DNA from: Geobacteraceae bacterium | GTDB taxonomy: Bacteria > Desulfobacterota > Desulfuromonadia > Geobacterales > DSM-12255 | Assembly (NCBI GenBank): GCA_013377075.1 | Contig: JACABD010000007.1 | Location: 53,893-94,143 of the forward strand | Length of the DNA stretch: 40,251 bases | Direction of reading: 5' to 3' | In this document: positions 11,230-40,181 of the stretch, piece by piece | Layout: every line of letters begins with the position of its first letter | Position numbering within the stretch: position 1 is the first letter of the stretch | The notes under the pieces: model-generated | Told to the model about the DNA's origin: nothing | The model's database searches: none | Seen by the model: only the letters and a program-made list of their open reading frames with translations | Translations under genes and position numbers: made by a program

Positions 11230-13713
11230 ATGAAACTGACACTGTTCAGAAAATTCCTGCTGGCGCTCTTTTTGATCGCCATATTGCCGCTGATCCTGTC
11301 GTCGGCAACACTCCTTTTTAATCTTTCCGCCACATCAGGGCGGCTTGCTGAAGACATTACCGCTGCTACTGACAAGCAGGCATCTGAAGCGCTGCAGAGC
11401 CGGGCACGGCAGGTTGCCGAGGATGTGTCCCAGTTTCTGGCACAGTGCGAAAACGATCTTCGTCTGGTTGCCGCCATTTCCAAGGACAGCTCCACCCTGG
11501 ACAGCTTCTACCAGAGCAGGAAATTAGAAATCTGGCATCGCCTCGAAAAAAACGGGCAACCTGTCGAAGAGTCGCTTTTCATACCGGTCTACTCATCCCT
11601 TGAGCTGATTGACAAAAAAGGGAAACAACGCTTTGTCATCTCCTCCGGCAGGATTCTCCCGGTGGATGAACTGAAGGACATCTCAAACCAGGCCAATACC
11701 GGCTTTCGGAGTGAGGATTACTTCAGAAAAACCGCTTCCCTGAAAAAGGGGAAAATCTATGTTTCCCATCTCACCGGATTTCATGTTTCCAAAAAGGAGC
11801 AGCTAAGGGGAGCACAGGATTCGGAAACGGCCTATGGCGGCAAGGAATACCAGGGTGTCATCCGTTTTGCCACCCCGATCTACGGCTCGGATAACGAGTT
11901 TGAGGGGATTATTGTTCTGTCACTCGACCATCGCCATCTGATGGAATTCAGCCAGCATATACTCCCCGGCAGTGTGGAAAAAACGCTTTTCCCGTCCTAC
12001 AAAAGCGGCAACTATGCCTTTATTTTCGATGATGAAGGCTGGATCATCACCCACCCAAACTACTGGGATATTCGCGGACTTTATCCTGACGGCAGGGAGG
12101 TTGCCCCCTACACGGAGAATACGCCGCTGGCGCTGATTGAGGCGGGAAGAATCCCGTTCAATCTCGACCGTGCCGGTTTTATTCACCCCAACTACCCCCT
12201 TGCCGCGGCAATGGCGAGAAAGGGTGAGAGCGGTTATCTGGACACAACCAATGTCGGCGGCGCCCGCAAGGTTATGGCCTATGCCCCCATTCCCTACCGC
12301 ACAGGGGATTACAGGCGACACGGCATATTTGGCGGCGTCACAATAGGCTTCCAGACCGACCAGTTCCACGAACCGGCCAAGCAGGCAGCAGCAGTGATTC
12401 ATAATCAGATGCAGAGTCATCTGCGGCGAAGCGGGATGATTCTTGCCTTCACAGCCCTCCTCTCCCTTCTGGCCGCATGGAGAATCTCAAGGAGTATCAC
12501 CAAACCCCTGGCGCTTCTCACAGAAAAGGCAAGGGATCTGGCAGAAGGTGCCGAAGGAGTGCGGGTCCTGATCTCATCGGGCGATGAAGTTGGCGAACTG
12601 GCTGCAGATTTCAACAAAATGGCTGACGAGCTTGAAGTGCGTAACCGCCATATTCTTGAAACCCTCTCCGAACTTGCCCGCTCCAGGGAAACTGTCACCG
12701 GCGAGCGCAACTTCATGGAAGAGGTGCTCAACAGTATCTCCAGCGCAATTATCCCCTTTTCACCCCAAGGGGAGATGATCTCAATCAACACCAAGGGGAT
12801 CGAGATACTGGAACGGACACCGCTTTCAGGGGAGAAGTACAGTCTGATTTTTGCAGACTGGCCGTCACTTGTGCAGCGGATCGAGGAGACAGTTGCCGGC
12901 AGGGGCGAATTTGGTCGCAAACCGGATAATTGGAAACGCAGATGTTTCGATGTCGGAATATTCCCCATCGGCGCAGGCATGGAACAGGGTTTCACCGTTA
13001 CTCTTCGTGATGAGACCGAGAAGGAGCGGATGCGTGAAGAAATGACGCGGATGGATCGTTTTGCCTCCCTTGGCAGGCTTTCTGCCGGAATTGCCCATGA
13101 GATCCGTAATCCTCTTACCGGCATCACCTTGCTCCTTGACGATCTCCACGACCGGGCAGATACTGATCCGGAGAGCCGCGAGATGCTGGGACGATCACTT
13201 GAGGAAATCGAGCGGGTGGAGCGGCTCCTCAGTTCGCTCCTCAGCTACGCGTCTCCGCCAAAATCCGAGTTTTACACCGCCGACCTTAAGCAGACAATCG
13301 AAGAGACCCTCCTCTTTTTCAGAAAAACGTGTGAAAAAGGTGGTGTCTCCCTGGAGAGCCGTATTGCAAGGCTTCCCGAACTTGTCTTTGATCCTGACAA
13401 GATCAGGCAGATGCTGCTGAACCTTTTGCGCAACGCCCTTGAAGCCACGCAAAGCGGTGGCAGAATCACGGTAACCCTGGAACGTGAAAATGAGAGCGCA
13501 ATTTTAACCGTAACCGACACCGGGCAGGGGATTCCGGCGCCGGATCTTGATCATGTATTCGAGCCGTTTTTCACCAGAAGCGTCGGCGGCACCGGCCTTG
13601 GACTCTCCATCAGCCAGCGGATCATCGAGGAGCATCACGGCAGCATTGAGGTCAGAAGCGTTGAGGGTGAAGGGACGCGGTTTGAGATACGGCTGCCGCT
13701 TACAGGAACATAA
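11230..13713 (+). CDS. Membrane sensor histidine kinase (Cache-HAMP-PAS-HisKA-HATPase)
   Basis: 827 residues. An N-terminal membrane segment (FLLALFLIAILPLILS) is followed by a large extracytoplasmic Cache-like sensor region (about 35-390), a second membrane segment (MILAFTALLSLLAAW), HAMP (RSITKPLALL ... DEVGELAADFNKM) and a PAS-like region (NFMEEVLNSISSAIIPF). The kinase core has the H-box IAHEIRNPLTGI with His623 as phosphoacceptor, N-box MLLNLLRNALEAT, and ATP-lid motifs DTGQGIP and GGTGLGLSISQRI. It resembles NtrB/DctB/ZraS-type kinases that pair with sigma-54 activators. The activator gene begins one base after its stop. The TRAP transporter downstream suggests that the sensor domain detects an organic acid; the ligand is inference. 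Confidence 0.9.
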   Translation: MKLTLFRKFLLALFLIAILPLILSSATLLFNLSATSGRLAEDITAATDKQASEALQSRARQVAEDVSQFLAQCENDLRLVAAISKDSSTLDSFYQSRKLEIWHRLEKNGQPVEESLFIPVYSSLELIDKKGKQRFVISSGRILPVDELKDISNQANTGFRSEDYFRKTASLKKGKIYVSHLTGFHVSKKEQLRGAQDSETAYGGKEYQGVIRFATPIYGSDNEFEGIIVLSLDHRHLMEFSQHILPGSVEKTLFPSYKSGNYAFIFDDEGWIITHPNYWDIRGLYPDGREVAPYTENTPLALIEAGRIPFNLDRAGFIHPNYPLAAAMARKGESGYLDTTNVGGARKVMAYAPIPYRTGDYRRHGIFGGVTIGFQTDQFHEPAKQAAAVIHNQMQSHLRRSGMILAFTALLSLLAAWRISRSITKPLALLTEKARDLAEGAEGVRVLISSGDEVGELAADFNKMADELEVRNRHILETLSELARSRETVTGERNFMEEVLNSISSAIIPFSPQGEMISINTKGIEILERTPLSGEKYSLIFADWPSLVQRIEETVAGRGEFGRKPDNWKRRCFDVGIFPIGAGMEQGFTVTLRDETEKERMREEMTRMDRFASLGRLSAGIAHEIRNPLTGITLLLDDLHDRADTDPESREMLGRSLEEIERVERLLSSLLSYASPPKSEFYTADLKQTIEETLLFFRKTCEKGGVSLESRIARLPELVFDPDKIRQMLLNLLRNALEATQSGGRITVTLERENESAILTVTDTGQGIPAPDLDHVFEPFFTRSVGGTGLGLSISQRIIEEHHGSIEVRSVEGEGTRFEIRLPLTGT

Positions 13714-13714
13714 A

Positions 13715-15079
13715 ATGGAAAAAATTCTCATAATAGACGACGAGCAGTTCATTCGCGATAATGTCAATCGTGTCCTCTCCGAAGATGGCTACGAAACTAT
13801 TCAGGCTGCTGACGGCAAGAGTGCCCTGGAGGCCGTGTCTTCCGAGGAGATTGACCTTGCCCTGCTCGACCTTAATCTGGGGAGCGAAAACGGCATTGAC
13901 ATTCTCCGGTCAATGAAGAAGATCGACCCGGAGTTGCTGATCATCGTCATTACCGGTTACGGCTCTGTGGAAACAGCTGTGGAGTCCCTGAAACTGGGGG
14001 CTTTCCACTACATGAAGAAACCGTTCAAGGCCGATGCCCTGCGGCTTATCGTCAAACTTGCCCTCCAGACCAGCAACCTCAAGCGTGAAGTAAGAGCGAT
14101 CCGCAAAAACGAGCTCCTCTTCTTTGAAAAGGTGCAGATGGTCGGGGTGAGCAGCTCCCTGAAAGAAATCATGCACCAGGCAAGGGAGGTTGCACGGCAC
14201 TCCGACGCCACTGTGCTCATCACCGGCGAGTCAGGGACAGGAAAAGAGCTGATTTCAAAGAGCATCCATCACCTCTCAGGGAGGCGGGAGGCTCCTTTTA
14301 TTGAAATAAACTGCGCCTCCATTCCGGTGAACCTCCTTGAGAGCGAGCTTTTCGGCCATGAGAAAGGGGCTTTTACCGATGCCAAAGAACGCAAACAGGG
14401 GCTCTTCGAGGCTGCCAACCGTGGGACAATCTTTCTTGATGAAGTAGGCGAAATGGATCCGGCTGTACAGGCAAAACTGCTGCGGGTGCTGGAGAGCCGC
14501 ACCATACGGCGTATCGGCGGCATCAAGAATATCGAGGTTGATGTCCGGGTCATTGCCGCCACCAATAGAAACCTGAAGGAGGCGATGCAGAATGGCAGCT
14601 TTCGCGAGGATCTTTTCTACCGCCTCAATGTCTTCCCGATTCATATCCCGCCACTGCGGGAGCGGCTCGAAGATATCCCGTCGCTGGTGACATTCTTTCT
14701 GGAGACCTACAGCAGGCAGTTCTCCCGCAGCTTTACAGCCATCTCCCCTGAAGCCATGAAGCGCCTCTGCGCCTACAGCTGGCCGGGAAATATCCGCGAG
14801 CTGAAAAACAGCATCGAGCGGATATGCATCATGAACGACAGTGAATCACTGGAAACCGGGATGCTCCCGCCTGAAATCAGGGGGAAAAAGTCAGGGGAAG
14901 GAGAGGTCTGCGACACTCCGCAAACCGGACTTGAAGAGGCAGTGGAGGCCCTTGAGCGGCGGATGATCCGCTGCGCCCTTGCCAGCTCCGGCAACAATGT
15001 CCTTCAGGCTGCCCAGCTGTTAAAAATCCCAAGGGGCACTTTGCGCTACAAGATAGAAAAGCTGGGGATAGCCGCTTGA
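13715..15079 (+). CDS. NtrC-family sigma-54-dependent response regulator
   Basis: 454 residues: receiver domain (acid pocket D8/D9, phosphoacceptor D52 in LLDLNLG, K103 in MKKPF), AAA+ sigma-54 interaction domain (Walker A GESGTGKE at 172-179, Walker B-like GTIFLDEVGEM) and a Fis-type HTH at the C terminus (NNVLQAAQLLKIPRGTLRYKI). The sigma-54 contact loop reads GAFTDA (219-224) instead of the canonical GAFTGA, a variant that occurs naturally. I chose ATG 13715 because the receiver starts there (MEKILIIDDE) and it lies one base after the kinase stop; the upstream extension is only overlap with the kinase. It most likely activates the sigma-54 promoter found before dctP. Confidence 0.93.
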   Translation: MEKILIIDDEQFIRDNVNRVLSEDGYETIQAADGKSALEAVSSEEIDLALLDLNLGSENGIDILRSMKKIDPELLIIVITGYGSVETAVESLKLGAFHYMKKPFKADALRLIVKLALQTSNLKREVRAIRKNELLFFEKVQMVGVSSSLKEIMHQAREVARHSDATVLITGESGTGKELISKSIHHLSGRREAPFIEINCASIPVNLLESELFGHEKGAFTDAKERKQGLFEAANRGTIFLDEVGEMDPAVQAKLLRVLESRTIRRIGGIKNIEVDVRVIAATNRNLKEAMQNGSFREDLFYRLNVFPIHIPPLRERLEDIPSLVTFFLETYSRQFSRSFTAISPEAMKRLCAYSWPGNIRELKNSIERICIMNDSESLETGMLPPEIRGKKSGEGEVCDTPQTGLEEAVEALERRMIRCALASSGNNVLQAAQLLKIPRGTLRYKIEKLGIAA

Positions 15080-21567: not shown

Positions 21568-22884
21568 ATGAATATGACCTTAGCCAAGCCAATTTTATTA
21601 CTCTCTATCGTCTTGCTTCCCTCCGCCCTAAGTGCAGCCGAAATCTCCATTGATTCAAACACCATTTTCCGCATTGAAAAACGTGACATGATAGGTTCAG
21701 GAAAAGACACTATCATGCCTGCGACCGAATTTATCGGTTTTGACGCCAACAGGCTTGCTGATACCAACCTGTCATTCCATTTTTATGGCTGGGGGCGAAT
21801 GGATCTGAAAGACAAGAGTTATAATGATGACAATGCTGACGCCGGATTCACATACGGATATCTCCGCTACCGCTTTAATTCAGCAAATGCAGATGTTAGA
21901 GCCGGTCGTTTTTTTGTTCACGAAGGCATTGTCAATGAACAGGTCGACGGTGTCAGCGCAAGGACAGACCTACCATTAGGCTTCGGCATCTCGGCGTTCG
22001 GAGGCGCTCCGGTACATGGAGAGAATCTTTATCGGGAGAATAGTGACGGCAAAGGAGATAGCGTCGTCGGTGGAAGACTCAACTACCGCTTCAAAGGGAT
22101 TCTCGACCTTGGAGTTTCAACCGTATATGAAGGCAAGACACCTGATCTGCTCTACCATACCAACGGAGAGCACCGTCTGGTTGGCGGCGACATCTGGCTC
22201 ACACCGATCTCCTGGTTCGAACTGATCGGCCACACGAGCTATAACACAAAAACATCAACAGTTGCAGAACACTCCTACCTGGCAAACATCCGCCCCCTGA
22301 AGCGCCTTACACTAAGTGCTCAATACAACGAATCTGACGATCAGAGTCTCTTTTACTCATGGGCCGCATTTTCCGGTGCAGCACTGCCATCCGGTAGCAA
22401 AACAAGAACTGCTGCAACTACAGTTTCCTATGAATTCAGCAAGAACGTGGAAGCATCGACAGATTTCAAGCATTACAAGCGGGACAAGGGTGAAGCTGAA
22501 CGTTATGGCGGTAATCTCAAATTCAAGTTCATGGAAAACAGTTTACGCACAGGCATCGGTTATCACTACCTGCGTGCCGGAGAAGGGTTTGCCATAGATA
22601 GCAACCCTACCGCTTCTTATCAGGAAGCACGAACTTATGCCATGTACGATTCGAAAACGTACTTCACTGCAATAGACCTGATTGGGCAGTTCTTCAAGAA
22701 CAAGGTCTACAACAAGAGCAACGCTCTTGAGGGCAGAGTCTCCATCGGCTACCACATCACACCTACACTGGCAGTTTCGGGTGACATAAGCTGCGGCAAA
22801 AACCCTGAATTCACTTCGGAGACAAAAGGTCTGATCAGACTTACATATAATCCTGTCTTTGACGGCAAAGGAGATAAAAAATGA
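21568..22884 (+). CDS. Outer-membrane beta-barrel of a porin-cytochrome conduit
   Basis: 438 residues with a signal peptide (PILLLSIVLLPSALSA, cleavage before AEIS). The rest alternates hydrophobic and polar residues with many short aromatic-rich strands (LSFHFYGWGRMDL, FTYGYLRYRF, VVGGRLNYRFKGIL, SLFYSWAAFSG, LRTGIGYHYLRAG, ALEGRVSIGYHI), typical of a barrel of about 18-22 strands. No conserved enzyme motif is present. Two multiheme lipoprotein genes follow with overlap or an 8-bp gap, the arrangement known for Geobacter porin-cytochrome conduits such as the ext and omb-oma-omc clusters. It probably forms the pore through which cytochrome hemes span the outer membrane. AAAGGGGA precedes ATG 21568. 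Confidence 0.83.
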   Translation: MNMTLAKPILLLSIVLLPSALSAAEISIDSNTIFRIEKRDMIGSGKDTIMPATEFIGFDANRLADTNLSFHFYGWGRMDLKDKSYNDDNADAGFTYGYLRYRFNSANADVRAGRFFVHEGIVNEQVDGVSARTDLPLGFGISAFGGAPVHGENLYRENSDGKGDSVVGGRLNYRFKGILDLGVSTVYEGKTPDLLYHTNGEHRLVGGDIWLTPISWFELIGHTSYNTKTSTVAEHSYLANIRPLKRLTLSAQYNESDDQSLFYSWAAFSGAALPSGSKTRTAATTVSYEFSKNVEASTDFKHYKRDKGEAERYGGNLKFKFMENSLRTGIGYHYLRAGEGFAIDSNPTASYQEARTYAMYDSKTYFTAIDLIGQFFKNKVYNKSNALEGRVSIGYHITPTLAVSGDISCGKNPEFTSETKGLIRLTYNPVFDGKGDKK

Positions 22885-23357
22885 ACCTGTTACGACTGAG
22901 TACCCTTGTATTTGCCATCATCGCCATGATCGTGACTTTAGCTGCATGCGCCCAGATGAACAGCATGAAAAGTCTCCCTTCTGCGCACCCTGAATCACTG
23001 GCAATCGGCCAGCAGGCAGACTGCTCCGAGTGTCATGACGATCAGCAGAAAGGAACTCTTAAGGCAATCCCCTACTTCAGCCATTCAAAATCTTTTGTAG
23101 ATAACCATCGTTTTTATGCTGCCAATGATAACCGCCTCTGCATAGTCTGCCACAAAGAATCTTTCTGTGCCGATTGCCATACAAACAAGGTCGAGATGAA
23201 ACCTTCGACCAAATACGGTTATCGTCCGGACAGAGAGATGCCCCATCTTGGCGACTTCATGGTGCTTCACAGGATTGAAGGGAAGCTGGATCCGGCGAGC
23301 TGCTACCGCTGTCATGGTAGAGCCAACAACGAGCGCTGCAGCAGTTGCCATAGATAG
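22881..23357 (+). CDS. Five-heme lipoprotein c-type cytochrome
   Basis: 158 residues. The lipoprotein signal ends LAAC (C23). Five CXXCH motifs follow: C48SECH, C87IVCH, C96ADCH, C141YRCH, C153SSCH. Extra histidines (H68, H76, H122, H130) are available as distal ligands. Heme spacing is uneven: a close pair at 87/96 and another at 141/153. The ATG overlaps the barrel stop (ATGA), so barrel and cytochrome are made in step. Probably the periplasm-side cytochrome that feeds electrons into the barrel, by analogy with the small cytochromes of other conduits. Confidence 0.92.
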   Translation: MNLLRLSTLVFAIIAMIVTLAACAQMNSMKSLPSAHPESLAIGQQADCSECHDDQQKGTLKAIPYFSHSKSFVDNHRFYAANDNRLCIVCHKESFCADCHTNKVEMKPSTKYGYRPDREMPHLGDFMVLHRIEGKLDPASCYRCHGRANNERCSSCHR

Positions 23358-23365
23358 GAGGAATT

Positions 23366-26248
23366 ATGCGATTTTCAGCTTTATTGCTTATTCTGGGATT
23401 GATGTTTGGCTGCAGCAAAGCCAATGAAAATGCTCCGATACTGAACCCGGTTACCGGCAAACACCCTGCAGGCTGGGCTGTTGCCAATACCGGTGGACTC
23501 CATCCGGCAGCTTATCTGAAAGGGCCAAGTTCCTGCCTGGAATGCCACGGCAAGAACATGGATGGCGGCATCAGCAGTGTCAGCTGCTTCAGTGCCTCGC
23601 GAAGCGGAATTACCTGCCACCCGGGGGGGCCTTCAGGACACCCGCAGGGGTGGTCGGCACCTAACTCCCATGGCGCGGCAGCAAAGGCTGCCTATGCAGG
23701 CAGATTCGGATTTCTTCACTGTTCCAACTGCCATGGAGTTGACTACAATGGTGGTGTGGTCAATAAGTCATGCTTCAGCAATTCGGGCTGTCATGTAAAA
23801 TCGCCCCACCCTTCTCCGTGGCAACCTAGTTTAAGCATTTTTACCCACACAAATACTGATGCCAGCAACGCGGCAGCCTGCATAGTCTGCCATGCAAGCG
23901 GTAACAACTTCCCTCACCTGGGTAACTCTACCCCGCCAGCAACAACACCTCCAGCCGGGACTCCAGCGGGATGTTTCAACAATACTCTCTGCCACGGCGT
24001 AATGGGGCATAATGTTGGCTGGTCAGCTCCTAATGTGCATGGGGCTTCTGCTAAAGGTATCGCCAGCGGTGACACCGGTTTTAAATCCTGCACCCAGTGT
24101 CATGGTACAAATTATGGCACCATTCTTTATACTGCCGACATTCCACCCATACCTAAGACTTGCCTTGATCCTGCTGCCTGCCACTCCGTTGCAGCACCAC
24201 ATCCACCAAAACCATGGAGAACCACTGGCGGGGTAACCCATATCAACACCGACACCAGCAACGCCGACCAGTGCGCTATTTGCCACACTGGTGGGCAGAA
24301 TTCGGGATTAAAACCAATCACTGGAGCTCAGGCCGGACTTACAGGATGTTACAACAATACTCTCTGTCACGGCCAGATTGGCCACCCTGCAGGATGGAGT
24401 GCCCCTACAGCACATGGCGCTACAGCTAAAAAAGCCCCTTCTCAAACAACCGGCTTCTCCTCGTGCCAGCTCTGTCACGGTGCAGCATTTGTCAACGGAA
24501 GCGCTACTACCTGCTTCAAGGGGATCGGCTGCCACGGTTTCGGCATAGCATCACCACATCCGCAAAAGCCGTGGTTCTCCCGTACAGGCGGGGTCACCCA
24601 TTCAGATACTGACCCGGGGAATGTCGACGTATGTGCCATCTGTCATACAGCCGGTGCCAACTCGACAATCAAACCACCTTTCCCTCAAACCAACACCCTG
24701 GCTGGCTGCTATAACAACACCCTCTGCCACTTCCATCAGATCCCATTTGCTCCGCCACCATTAGGTACAATGCCGATATCACTACATAGCGGAGAGGCAA
24801 AAAAAGACCTGAGCATCTGCCAGGCATGCCATGGAAAACCTGGAACCACAGCTTTTGACGGAGTCCTCCTTGCAGATGGTACACGCACAATTGCCTGCTC
24901 ATCCTGTCACACATATGCCAAAGCTCACCCAACAGACTGGCAGGGATCTGGCACATACTCACACAGGGATGCGGGCAACAAATCTGTTGCCTGCGCAATC
25001 TGCCACGGATTAAGCTTGGGAGCGGCATCTCCTCTCCCGGCTGCGCCCAGCTGTTTCAGCGCTTCCTTTACCAACCCACTTGGACAGGCCAGAACCTGTC
25101 ATGCCAACGGACCTGGAAACGCTGCCCATACTGTCCCTTATGTCAATCACAATTCGGCTGCCAGCGCAAACATAACCTACTGCCTCGGTTGTCACAGTGT
25201 CACAGGTTCAGGCTCTAATCCCAATGCTCCTGCCTGCACGAGCTGTCACATTTCAAGTCCACAGGCAAGTCCGAGCAATTGCGTCTCATGTCACGCAATG
25301 CCTCCTAGTGGCCCCACATATCCCAATATCAACAAATCGCACACGGCACATAGTTCCCTTAACGTCACGGCCATTTGTGCAGAGTGCCATTCCGGACTCG
25401 GAGCGGGCACATATAATCATTACTCAAGATCGCAACTTCGCACGACATCAGTCCAACCAAACCCTGTAAAATTCGGCACATTGGCAAAAACCGGCGGAGT
25501 TGCCCCGACATTCACCCTCTCAACCGGTGTATGCGCTAATACATACTGCCATGGCGCAACGCTGTTAGGCGGCAGCAATCCGAATCCTGTATGGGGGGAC
25601 GCAACCTATCTGACTGGATGCGGAGTCTGCCATGGTTTCCCACCGTCAACTCCTGAGCACACAGGCTCGAATGTCACGTCCGCTACTCCTTGCATGGGTT
25701 GCCACCCGCATGTCAACGCAACAAATACCGGATTTACCGACCCTACCAAACATATCAACGGAGTGATTGATGCGAGTGGAACCGGGCATGCATTCCCATA
25801 CTCCGGAGCCCTTCACCAGGCAAACGGCGCTACCTTGGCCAACTGTAGCGGCTGTCATGACACAACAACTACCGGCGGTACTTACCCTGTTGCAGCAGGA
25901 GTCCGTCCGCTCTGCTCGGGCTGTCACCTTAACATGACCGGTTTTACAGGCTGTTGGGACTGCCACGGAGCAAGTGCAACTAACGCAAGACCAAATGGCT
26001 CTTCTTTTCCGAATCGGGTTGGCTATCACAATGTGGGCGACCATGCAGCATCCAAATTCACATGTACAACCTGTCACCCCATAACTTCAGGAAGCATTAA
26101 TCATGGGTGGTCTAACAGGATAAAATCAACCAGAGCACAGGTTAACGCTAGCCTGAGATTTGTTCCGGCCAATGGCAACATTCAAAGCAGCTGTAATCCA
26201 TCAGCTGGAGGGATGACCGGCTGTCACGGTTCTGCAAACGGCTGGTAA
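23366..26248 (+). CDS. Large multiheme lipoprotein cytochrome c (20 CXXCH plus 10 CXnCH)
   Basis: 960 residues. The signal peptide ends LMFGC (C16), a probable lipoprotein site. Twenty canonical CXXCH motifs start at C57, 119, 172, 242, 303, 367, 423, 485, 511, 543, 606, 624, 639, 671, 752, 776, 827, 850, 863 and 900. Ten further CXnCH sites exist: CX5CH at 136, 203, 266, 328, 383 and 448, CX4CH at 723, CX9CH at 74 and 943, CX14CH at 563. Residues 95-217, 218-342 and 343-466 are tandem units starting GWSAP, each with CXXCH, CX5CH, CXXCH, CX5CH in that order. Residues 723-756 match the Geobacter CX4CH...CXXCH domain pattern (TIGR01904 as I recall it). AGGAGG lies five bases before ATG 23366 and overlaps the previous gene's end. 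Likely the outward-facing electron outlet of the conduit. Confidence 0.93.
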   Translation: MRFSALLLILGLMFGCSKANENAPILNPVTGKHPAGWAVANTGGLHPAAYLKGPSSCLECHGKNMDGGISSVSCFSASRSGITCHPGGPSGHPQGWSAPNSHGAAAKAAYAGRFGFLHCSNCHGVDYNGGVVNKSCFSNSGCHVKSPHPSPWQPSLSIFTHTNTDASNAAACIVCHASGNNFPHLGNSTPPATTPPAGTPAGCFNNTLCHGVMGHNVGWSAPNVHGASAKGIASGDTGFKSCTQCHGTNYGTILYTADIPPIPKTCLDPAACHSVAAPHPPKPWRTTGGVTHINTDTSNADQCAICHTGGQNSGLKPITGAQAGLTGCYNNTLCHGQIGHPAGWSAPTAHGATAKKAPSQTTGFSSCQLCHGAAFVNGSATTCFKGIGCHGFGIASPHPQKPWFSRTGGVTHSDTDPGNVDVCAICHTAGANSTIKPPFPQTNTLAGCYNNTLCHFHQIPFAPPPLGTMPISLHSGEAKKDLSICQACHGKPGTTAFDGVLLADGTRTIACSSCHTYAKAHPTDWQGSGTYSHRDAGNKSVACAICHGLSLGAASPLPAAPSCFSASFTNPLGQARTCHANGPGNAAHTVPYVNHNSAASANITYCLGCHSVTGSGSNPNAPACTSCHISSPQASPSNCVSCHAMPPSGPTYPNINKSHTAHSSLNVTAICAECHSGLGAGTYNHYSRSQLRTTSVQPNPVKFGTLAKTGGVAPTFTLSTGVCANTYCHGATLLGGSNPNPVWGDATYLTGCGVCHGFPPSTPEHTGSNVTSATPCMGCHPHVNATNTGFTDPTKHINGVIDASGTGHAFPYSGALHQANGATLANCSGCHDTTTTGGTYPVAAGVRPLCSGCHLNMTGFTGCWDCHGASATNARPNGSSFPNRVGYHNVGDHAASKFTCTTCHPITSGSINHGWSNRIKSTRAQVNASLRFVPANGNIQSSCNPSAGGMTGCHGSANGW

Positions 26249-26346: not shown

Positions 26347-26382
26347 AAAAGAGGGGGACGCCATTTGCGCCCCCCTCTTTTA
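26347..26382. terminator. Bidirectional rho-independent terminator
   Basis: AAAAGAGGGGG (26347-26357) pairs with CCCCCTCTTTT (26371-26381). A-tract and T-tract flank both sides, so it can end the cytochrome transcript on the plus strand and the zinc-ribbon transcript on the minus strand. Confidence 0.9.
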
Positions 26383-26404: not shown

Positions 26405-26560
26405 TCAGTCTCTAAGTGAATTCAGATTCCGCACTCTGTTAGCTATGATTGTGGAGTCTAAAAGCTCTCCGCAGCATGTGCATTTCCAGGCATCAAAAGA
26501 GCGGACGAAATCATAATACTTCTCAGCGTACATTCTTCCTTTACACTTTGGACAATTCAT
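26405..26560 (-). CDS. 51-residue zinc-ribbon protein
   Basis: A short gene reads MNCPKCKGRMYAEKYYDF and continues VRSFDAWKCTCCGELLDS before ending NSLRD. C3/C6 and C27/C30 (with an extra C29) form a two-knuckle zinc ribbon. GGGAGGGGG, seven bases before ATG 26560, is a strong Shine-Dalgarno, and a bidirectional terminator follows the stop by 23 bases. Both support a real gene despite its size. Small proteins of this type occur in Geobacter relatives as hypothetical proteins in my memory; function unknown. It is convergent with the cytochrome operon. Confidence 0.78.
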   Translation of the reverse strand: MNCPKCKGRMYAEKYYDFVRSFDAWKCTCCGELLDSTIIANRVRNLNSLRD

Positions 26561-26817
26561 ATATACCCCCTCCCGGCTGAATTTTTTATAATTTCATAAG
26601 TGAGGATATCTAGTACATCAAACATGCCAATGTGTACCAAAAAAAGATGCATATATTAATCTACACTAACATTTATTTTTTATTCTTTACAATCAGCAGG
26701 TTACAGGCAGCACCAAGAGCATTCAATGTCATGGAAATTCTTAGAAAACAGCATTTATGTAATTTCAGATATCAACTGTAGAAAATTACGTCATTAATTT
26801 GGCGCCAGATTTAAACC
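26561..26817. other. AT-rich non-coding stretch upstream of the zinc-ribbon gene
   Basis: No convincing gene. It must contain the minus-strand promoter of the zinc-ribbon gene, but I cannot pick a reliable -35/-10 pair. A 44-codon frame from 26648 has no Shine-Dalgarno. Confidence 0.5.
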
Positions 26818-26952
26818 AGAGGGGAGTAATACTCTCTTATTAACGAAATAGGCAACTTAGTTGCGTGAAATTTAGGCCGGGAAGGTTAACCGGCAGCAAA
26901 GACATCGCCAAACAAATGACATCATATGGAATATGGTGTCATTTGTTTGGCG
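26818..26952. ncRNA. Candidate structured RNA or regulatory DNA: four consecutive hairpins
   Basis: Four dyads follow one another in otherwise unassigned DNA: GAGTAATACTC (26824-26834), GCAAC-TTA-GTTGC (26852-26864), GCCGG-N9-CCGGC (26876-26894), and a 47-base near-perfect hairpin (26906-26952). The last has 22-base arms, a three-base GGA loop and only one wobble pair. Arms start CGCCAAACAAATGACA and end TGTCATTTGTTTGGCG. No T-run follows on either strand, so it is not a normal terminator. It matches no riboswitch class that I can name. Strand and expression unknown. Confidence 0.35.
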
Positions 26953-27000
26953 CATAAAACAAATCAGATGAGGCTAACAGGAATATTCAGTGCAAATCAT

Positions 27001-27034
27001 AAAAAACGCACCCTGCGTTACCACAGGGTGCGTT
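27001..27034 (-). terminator. Rho-independent terminator of cimA
   Basis: AACGCACCCTG (27005-27015) and CAGGGTGCGTT (27024-27034) form a perfect 11-bp stem with an 8-base loop; on the minus strand it is followed by TTTT. It lies 27 bases after the cimA stop. Confidence 0.92.
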
Positions 27035-27061: not shown

Positions 27062-28636
27062 TCAGGCAGCTTCTTCGTTTTTATGCAACTTGAATTCTAT
27101 ACTATCAATCAGGGCCTGGTAAGATGCTTCAATTATGTTTTCAGAAACCCCTACGGTCCCCCAACGGCTCTCTTTGTCACCTGACTCTATAAGAACACGA
27201 ATGGCAGATGCAGTCCCCTGGCCGGCAGGAAGCACGCGTACTTTATAGTCAAGGAGCTTCACCTCTTTCAGTTTCGGATAGAACTTCTCAAGGGCCTTGC
27301 GAAGGGCATTGTCTAGAGCATTTACCGGGCCGTTACCCTCAGCAGCCGTATGCTCGACCTTGCCACCAACCCTGACCATCACAGTAGCCTCTGAGATCGG
27401 CTGATTATCCTCGTGGCGCTTCTCGTCTATAACCCTGAAGGCCGTAACAGTGAAGAACTTCTTATGTGTGCCCAGCGCCCGTTTCATCATCAGTTCAAAT
27501 GTGGCCTCTGCCCCTTCAAACTGATACCCCTTATTCTCCATTTCCTTGATATTATCGAGGATGTCCAGAGTTACAGGATCCTTGCTGTCAAGATTGATAT
27601 TAAACTCTTCTGCCTTGGCAAGGATATTGGCTCTACCGGAAAGATCCGATATCAGAACCCTGGTCGAGTTTCCGACTATTTCAGGGCGGATATGCTCATA
27701 GGTTTCCGGATGCCTCTGAATGGCGCTGACATGAACACCACCTTTGTGGGCAAAGGCTGCATTGCCGACATAGGCCTGATGCTTTGGAGGGGCAAAATTA
27801 GCCAGTTCATAGACATAACGGGAAAGATCACGAAGCTTTTTCAGCTGCTCATCACTTATGCAATCATGGTTCATTTTCAACTTCAGAGCAGGGATAATGG
27901 AGCAGAGGTTGGCATTTCCGCATCTTTCACCAAAACCATTGATAGTCCCCTGAACATGAACAATCCCGTGTTTAACAGCAATCAGCGAGTTTGCAACTGC
28001 GCACTCGCTGTCATTATGAGTATGAATTCCAAGAGGTGTTTTAATCTGTTTTTTAACATCATCGATTATCTCGGCAATCAAGAATGGCAGATTGCCACCA
28101 TTGGTATCACATAGAGTTATACAGTCTACACCGGCAGCTTCAGCAGCCAGAAGTGTCTTTATCGCATACTCAGGATTGGCTCTGTAGCCATCAAAAAAAT
28201 GCTCTGCATCATAAACAACTTCTGGAGCACGGGCTTTGAGATATGCAAGCGAATCGTGGATCAGATCAAGATTTTCTTCTAGAGATATTCGCAGAGCCTC
28301 CCTTACATGAAAGTCCCATGTTTTACCAAAAATCGTGATGCAGTCAGGCTCTGCCTGAACAAGCAATTTTATGTTCTGATCCTTGTCGGGTGTTATCTTT
28401 GCCCTGCGGGTTGAACCGAATGCGGCAATCTTTGTCTGCTTGAGCTTCTCCTTCTTAATCTCCTTGAAAAAAGCTACGTCCTTGGGGTTACTCCCAGGCC
28501 ATCCACCCTCTACATAATGAATACCCGCCTCGTCAAGACGGTGCGTAATCCGGATTTTGTCCTCAAGTAGGAATGAAATATCTTCAGACTGCGTACCGTC
28601 ACGCAGCGTAGTATCATAAAGCTTTACCAGACTCAT
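27062..28636 (-). CDS. cimA: (R)-citramalate synthase
   Basis: 524 residues. It condenses pyruvate and acetyl-CoA to citramalate, the entry to isoleucine synthesis that bypasses threonine; this route is established for Geobacter. The DRE-TIM metallolyase barrel shows [33 protein letters not shown] (metal-binding HxH), [15 protein letters not shown] and a C-terminal LeuA allosteric domain ([26 protein letters not shown], partly quoted as [19 protein letters not shown]). Length fits CimA of the long type and AAFGSTRRA supports CimA over 2-isopropylmalate synthase. Start ATG 28636 ([10 protein letters not shown]) has AGGAAGG six bases upstream; an in-frame ATG 33 bases earlier lacks one. It follows lysC on the same strand but has its own upstream region after the lysC terminator. 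Confidence 0.94.
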
Positions 28637-28804
28637 ATTTTCACCTTCCTGCGATAAGAGTATATTCAATAGAGTTGATATTTCTATAACGATTTTAGAA
28701 ACTTTTCAACATCGAAATCAATAATCAAACAGCTTTATCCGTAAATAACATCGTAAGTTTAGCAGCAGTAAATTATAACCATAAAATCTTATCCAGACTT
28801 AACG

Positions 28805-40141: not shown

Positions 40142-40181
40142 AAAAAACTGGGGGAAAGGTTTCCCCTTCCCCCAGTTTTTT
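40142..40181 (-). terminator. Rho-independent terminator of the window-edge gene
   Basis: The left arm (40142-40156, AAAAAACTGGGGGAA) pairs with the right arm (40167-40181, TTCCCCCAGTTTTTT). The minus strand has a T-run after the stem. It lies 20 bases after the stop of the partial gene, and before the DUF294 start. Confidence 0.9.

Follow-up and report, generated by a model that had tools for sequence, protein, structure and literature searches.

Conserved palindromic sites upstream of a small zinc-ribbon protein gene in the class that includes Geobacter, located in most relatives inside a ComEA-like gene

Three copies of a 16-bp palindrome, YGYCA-N6-TGRCR, lie upstream of a gene for a small zinc-ribbon protein in the genome of a Geobacteraceae bacterium, and the palindrome recurs at the corresponding position in relatives whose base composition differs widely. 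Judged from comparative sequence data, it is well supported that these palindromes are conserved control sites of the zinc-ribbon gene and that the region holding them is its upstream control region. The best reading, which we consider probable, is that they form an enhancer array through which an activator of the NtrC/FlrA type would drive this gene. A broader proposition has, in our estimate, an even chance of being correct. According to it, a class-wide array restricted to a single locus is in most species embedded in a ComEA-like gene, where the sequence is constrained both as code and as DNA; the sites and not the protein are indispensable, the array outlives the gene, and it drives the zinc-ribbon protein via a sigma54-type promoter that is unusual in having T or A at -12. 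Enhancers and palindromic operators as such are familiar. What is unusual here is the depth and locus specificity of the conservation, the position of the sites inside a neighbouring gene under codon constraint, their survival without that gene and the -12 variant of the promoter. Conservation to this extent is seen here in the control region of a core gene of Geobacter's class, and three palindromes, one promoter and one gene offer a short handle for tracing both the regulator of a small, nearly universal zinc-ribbon protein and the signal that governs it. The locus would also be a clean natural example of control DNA that is concealed in a coding sequence and persists after the loss of the gene that carried it.

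The window, a stretch of 40,251 nucleotides (G000:C94:53893-94143), belongs to a 3.7-Mb assembly of 126 contigs. The preliminary description had seen an apparent gene desert with no start codon near the feature; this is contradicted by an ORF of 51 aa at 26405-26560 on the minus strand, situated between the feature and an intrinsic terminator (26347-26381, minus strand). The ORF, which we presume to be the target of the sites, encodes a zinc-ribbon protein with two CxxC pairs, and the four cysteines are invariant in 11 diverse homologues. A homologue is present in 123 of the 138 genomes of the order and in 247 of the 277 of the class. In Pfam and NCBIfam the protein falls into no family above cut-off, and the search for a related solved structure returned none (best E 0.11). 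A literature search, with most subscription journals outside its range, found nothing on the gene or its sites, including under GSU1797 and GSU1796, the locus tags that we guessed for it. The upstream neighbour is a citramalate synthase-like gene (cimA; 27062-28669, minus strand) with HMGL-like, LeuA_dimer and HCS_D2 domains, set apart from the control region by its own intrinsic terminator at 27005-27034 (minus strand). The same neighbour is found in most relatives, where cimA also lies about 700 bp upstream of the zinc-ribbon gene. On the other side, convergent with the zinc-ribbon gene, the interval 21568-26248 holds ORFs with multihaem cytochrome c motifs, two of which match Cytochrome_C7 or GSu_C4xC__C2xCH.

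The feature was first described as a chain of hairpins closed by a long stem, a view which overlooked that the arms of this stem are two copies of the palindrome, 31 bp apart, and that a third copy lies nearby. All three are given here on the minus strand, that of the gene. The two distal copies occupy 26906-26921 (left stem arm, -361 from the ATG, TGTCATTTGTTTGGCG) and 26937-26952 (right stem arm, -392, CGCCAAACAAATGACA), and the proximal copy occupies 26789-26804 (-244, CGCCAAATTAATGACG). They conform to a GTCA-N6-TGAC box, one half-site of each copy at this locus being GCCA/TGGC. From the presumed transcription start, the sites are about 190 and 310-340 bp away here, and about 190 and 440-450 bp away in relatives.

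The near-perfect 22-bp stem itself is real. Its 22-nt arms, 26906-26927 and 26931-26952, are 95% complementary (21 of 22 pairs) and enclose a 3-nt GGA loop, which makes 26906-26952 the longest stem of the window with at most one mismatch. The runner-up, at 40142-40181 near the right end, has 18 bp with at most one mismatch and a 4-nt loop. Little is left of the remainder of the chain. On the plus strand, 26780-26970 folds with a z of -7.0 (0 of 200 shuffles as good), of which the long stem is the main cause. The three small dyads alone (26810-26903, assigned to no strand) barely exceed chance, with z = -2.2 on the plus strand (4 of 200 shuffles as good) and z = -0.2 on the minus strand (78 of 200), and give no evidence of function.

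The strength of the plus-strand fold speaks for a small structured RNA transcribed from the region, with the 22-bp hairpin as its functional core. We nevertheless regard this reading as highly improbable. No Rfam family was matched at its gathering score, and permissive E-values yielded only weak matches, mostly to eukaryotic microRNA and snoRNA families and far under the gathering scores. The small dyads fold at chance on the gene strand and no terminator-like tail was found after the 22-bp stem, in which respect the initial statement that the hairpin is not explained by a terminator stands. An important hairpin should make the two N6 spacers of a pair match as mirror images better within genomes than between them, which is not the case: among 87 distal pairs, 2.31 of 6 spacer positions are complementary, against 2.32 in permuted pairs. 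Comparison across relatives thus brought out no conserved pairing beyond the palindromes. A full 6/6 mirror occurs only in this genome among the listed pairs 30-32 bp apart. Palindromic paired sites that fully mirror each other can be drawn as a 22-bp hairpin, and on the sequences compared the full mirror, hence the striking hairpin, looks peculiar to this genome among pairs of such spacing. The functional form of the paired sites would be double-stranded DNA rather than a hairpin. As a separate matter, a retron msr-msd, which combines short hairpins with a long stem, was considered and rejected: no reverse transcriptase lies nearby, and the sole RVT_1 match of the genome, presumably a group II intron-type protein, is on another contig.

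The conservation of the sites was assessed in a proximal window (-290 to -190 from the gene) and a distal window (-575 to -420), exactly or with at most one mismatch, alongside shuffled controls. The census of the order drew on 125 loci, with at least one from almost every genome that has a homologue. With at most one mismatch, the proximal site was present in 118 of 121 loci (3.7 in shuffles) and the distal site in 114 of 120 (7.3 in shuffles); the exact forms were found in 109 of 121 (0.2) and 106 of 120 (0.1), respectively. In nearly every relative the proximal site stands at about -198 to -285. It was missed at L062, L113 and L198, and these three loci also lack sites in the distal window. 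The other distal misses are due to distal sites that stand nearer to the gene, at L024 (this genome), L045 and L114. At L198 (G105), whose gene is a partial hit, the only sites are at -357, -616 and -637, about 140 bp farther than usual. The promoter element has kept its position there, which gives the impression of an insertion between it and the sites.

Beyond the order's own loci, 20 more were selected in other families of the class, out of its 247 matching genomes; all of them carry the proximal site (20/20) and the distal site (20/20), usually as a 32-bp pair with the proximal site 256 bp downstream. A further set of 80 loci came from public genomes, mostly of Desulfuromonadales, Geobacteraceae and Geobacter-type organisms, and represents the best 80 of 180 relatives; wherever the upstream DNA was long enough, the proximal site (79 of 79) and the distal site (78 of 78) were present. 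This last set overlaps the other two, and counts are not additive across the sets. The spacing of 87 distal pairs is 21 bp in 63, 22 bp in one, 30 bp in one, 31 bp in one (this genome) and 32 bp in 21, and pairs 31-32 bp apart occur also in other families of the class. These spacings amount to two or three helix turns.

The palindrome is also specific to the locus. Across the 138 genomes of the order, the forward pattern CGYCAWWWWWWTGRCG matches 162 times and its reversed control 53 times, both sums being taken from hand-copied counts. Among the 75 forward matches listed, 64 are at this locus by eye from their coordinates, with 3 at contig ends without the gene, and the 11 that remain do not exceed what the control would lead one to expect. 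The narrower form GTCATTWNWTTGRCG was found at this locus only, with three copies in this genome and one in G009, and is absent from 11 other genomes of the family; its reversed control gives 5 matches in the same 13 genomes.

This concentration of genome-wide matches at one locus per genome would also suit sites for chromosome organisation or site-specific recombination rather than for gene expression, and recombinase cores resemble the N6 spacer. We find such a role very unlikely. The sites accompany the zinc-ribbon gene when it stands elsewhere, as they do in genus g3 (L057-L060) and at L114 and L115, where an additional copy of the gene, not next to cimA, retains them. Moreover, sites and promoter element are jointly absent at L062, where the ComEA-like gene is intact, and at L113.

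It had also been suggested that the feature is a small non-autonomous repeat. Direct and inverted copies of one 16-mer at a single locus could indeed be the remnant of a transposon end or a miniature repeat with TGTCATTT-type ends, an explanation to which we attach almost no probability. Neither the genome nor the plasmid records hold another copy, and no match was obtained at E<=0.01 in 140 other genomes of the order. Phage records give one weak hit of 81.6%, outside the feature. The fixed position before one gene in nearly all relatives across the class contradicts the idea. As to the three options raised at the outset, it is the regulator-binding palindrome that comparative sequence evidence supports well, as a cis element acting at the DNA level; the small RNA and the repeat are not supported. 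IS21/Tn402-like ends, suggested only by a resemblance of TGTCATTTT, were dropped once the position was found to be conserved. Two weak DNA hits in genomes of the family (L004, L005) were likewise set aside as matches of 20-23 bp, apparently inside coding sequence.

In most relatives, the gap between cimA and the zinc-ribbon gene holds a ComEA-like helix-hairpin-helix (HhH) gene of about 185 aa (HHH_3, E 1.5e-10; below the ComEA cut-off), and the palindromes are located within it. Such a position raises the alternative that the motif merely reflects conserved HhH codons (RQ-NG, V/A-I-K-M) and that the locus studied here is a pseudogene. We judge this scarcely credible, for several reasons. Among 87 representatives of the HhH gene, the third bases of the site codons are among the strongest outliers, beyond codon usage: the site codon CGT has T in 83 of 87 (expected fraction 0.22), the codon GGC is kept in 87 of 87 (expected 0.33), and a distal site codon ends in C in 87 of 87 (expected 0.34). 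With a spacing of 32 bp, which three does not divide, the copies fall into different reading frames, so that an amino-acid repeat cannot explain the pair. The HhH gene is missing from 24 of the 218 loci with enough upstream DNA, and 23 of the 24 retain the sites; with duplicates removed (L292 = L058, L299 = L060), 21 of 22 do. This genome and G009 have no HhH gene in the gap, and a profile search here, whose best hit (E 0.14) was on the strand opposite to the gene, revealed no remnant of one, which also speaks against a pseudogene. Where the HhH gene is absent, the spacing from distal to proximal sites is variable.

The HhH gene may carry more than the palindromes. At four loci that were read (L026, L056, L064 and L071), the cimA-type intrinsic terminator falls within the coding sequence of the downstream HhH gene, and the codons at this terminator are also third-base outliers among the 87 representatives, which suggests a second DNA-level element in the same gene.

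Between the palindromes and the zinc-ribbon gene, a sigma54-like promoter element, TTGGCATGTTTGATGTA, is found at 26614-26630 (minus strand), the only exact match to TTGGCAYRNNNGRTGWA in the genome. The element is conserved as TTGGCAYG-N3-GRTGWA near -60 to -90, and its loose form, GGCAY-N6-TGW, is present at 119 of 125 loci of the order and at 19 of the 20 from other families of the class. The -24 GG stands in a TTGGCAC context, which here reads TTGGCATG, and in the second half of the element T and G are kept at -14/-13. At -12 this genome reads GT and not the GC dinucleotide. The pattern used to gather 142 such elements fixes GGC and TG and admits A, T or C at -12; 138 of them carry T or A there and 4 carry C, and L165, L171 and L172 read GG-N10-GC. 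Sigma54 promoters are defined by C at -12, and with T or A in its place we name the element sigma54-like and do not file it as a sigma54 promoter. The -24 half equals TTGGCACGGTTTTTGCT, with one base off in this genome, which is the RpoN consensus of Geobacter sulfurreducens as reported in the relevant part of PMC2725144. The RpoN promoters described in that part share the same TTGGCACG -24 half and differ from the element here by having C at -12, where T or A is found in 138 of the 142 (PMC2725144).

Taken together with the palindromes, this element suggests a mechanism. The three 16-bp palindromes are predicted binding sites of a dimeric DNA-binding protein, and the distal pair, about three helical turns apart (31 bp), would seat two dimers next to each other on the same helix face. 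The likeliest binder would be a bacterial enhancer-binding protein, an AAA+ protein of the NtrC/FlrA type. From the paired and proximal palindromes, activator dimers could then reach the -24/-12 promoter (26614-26630) by DNA looping and switch on the zinc-ribbon gene. As in sigma54 enhancers, the sites are palindromic, conserved in position and upstream of the target promoter. We infer protein binding, activation over repression and the use of sigma54. Several observations count against the proposal: the sites are farther from the presumed start than most enhancers are, the -12 base is the wrong one for sigma54 in nearly all elements, and few loci (6 of 141, versus 1.95 in shuffles) have an IHF-like site in the interval from palindrome to promoter.

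The -12 base also favours the main rival, in which a different dimeric protein, either a repressor or a CRP/FNR-like factor, would use the palindromes as operators and act by looping or cooperatively on a promoter that does not depend on sigma54. Two or three widely spaced operators fit repression loops. We consider this unlikely, given that the -24 half TTGGCAYG and the TG at -14/-13 are of sigma54 type and that the few relatives mentioned above have the canonical -12 GC. A rigid loop would poorly tolerate the varying distance between distal and proximal sites in loci without the HhH gene, and no conserved -10 box at the usual spacing was seen by eye.

For the enhancer array that we favour, candidate activators abound, with 28 Sigma54_activat matches in the genome. 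Against it, inspection by eye revealed no activator gene that is consistently adjacent. FleQ proper was rejected as the binder: its domain, PF06490, was not found in this assembly, which is 95.5% complete, and is present in only 63 of 138 genomes of the order. In the window itself, some 11 kb away from the feature (11230-15079), a histidine kinase-like ORF precedes one for an NtrC-type response regulator, whose Sigma54_activat match is at G000:C94:68033-68536.

Several known systems offer points of comparison. The NtrC enhancer of glnA has a spacing of 32 bp (-108/-140). Its sites are placed at about -90 and -140 in the part of PMC7408454 that concerns them, and tandem sites upstream of a -24/-12 promoter are common to both systems, as looping would be; the sites described here are farther away, usually lie inside another gene and have a different half-site sequence (PMC7408454). 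In its section on the FlrA/FleQ-like activator DVU2894 of Desulfovibrio, PMC4641369 gives yGTCA-N6-TGACr as the predicted site. Half-site and 6-bp spacer are the same as here and the binder predicted there is a sigma54 activator, whereas the targets predicted there are its own gene and flagellar operons, and here the zinc-ribbon gene. The GCCA/TGGC half-sites of this locus resemble the FlrA site, GTCA-N6-TGGC, quoted in the same section (PMC4641369). The box proposed for Pseudomonas FleQ, GTCaNTAAAtTGAC, for which the portion of PMC6120874 dealing with it could not confirm a general consensus, has GTCA-N6-TGAC and an AT-rich centre in common with our palindrome. The palindrome differs from that box in allowing Y/R at the third position (GYCA/TGRC), in a genome in which no FleQ-domain protein was found (PMC6120874).

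Loci of three genomes (L105, L120 and L122) have one extra exact palindrome about 1.5-1.8 kb beyond the zinc-ribbon gene, where it possibly precedes another target.
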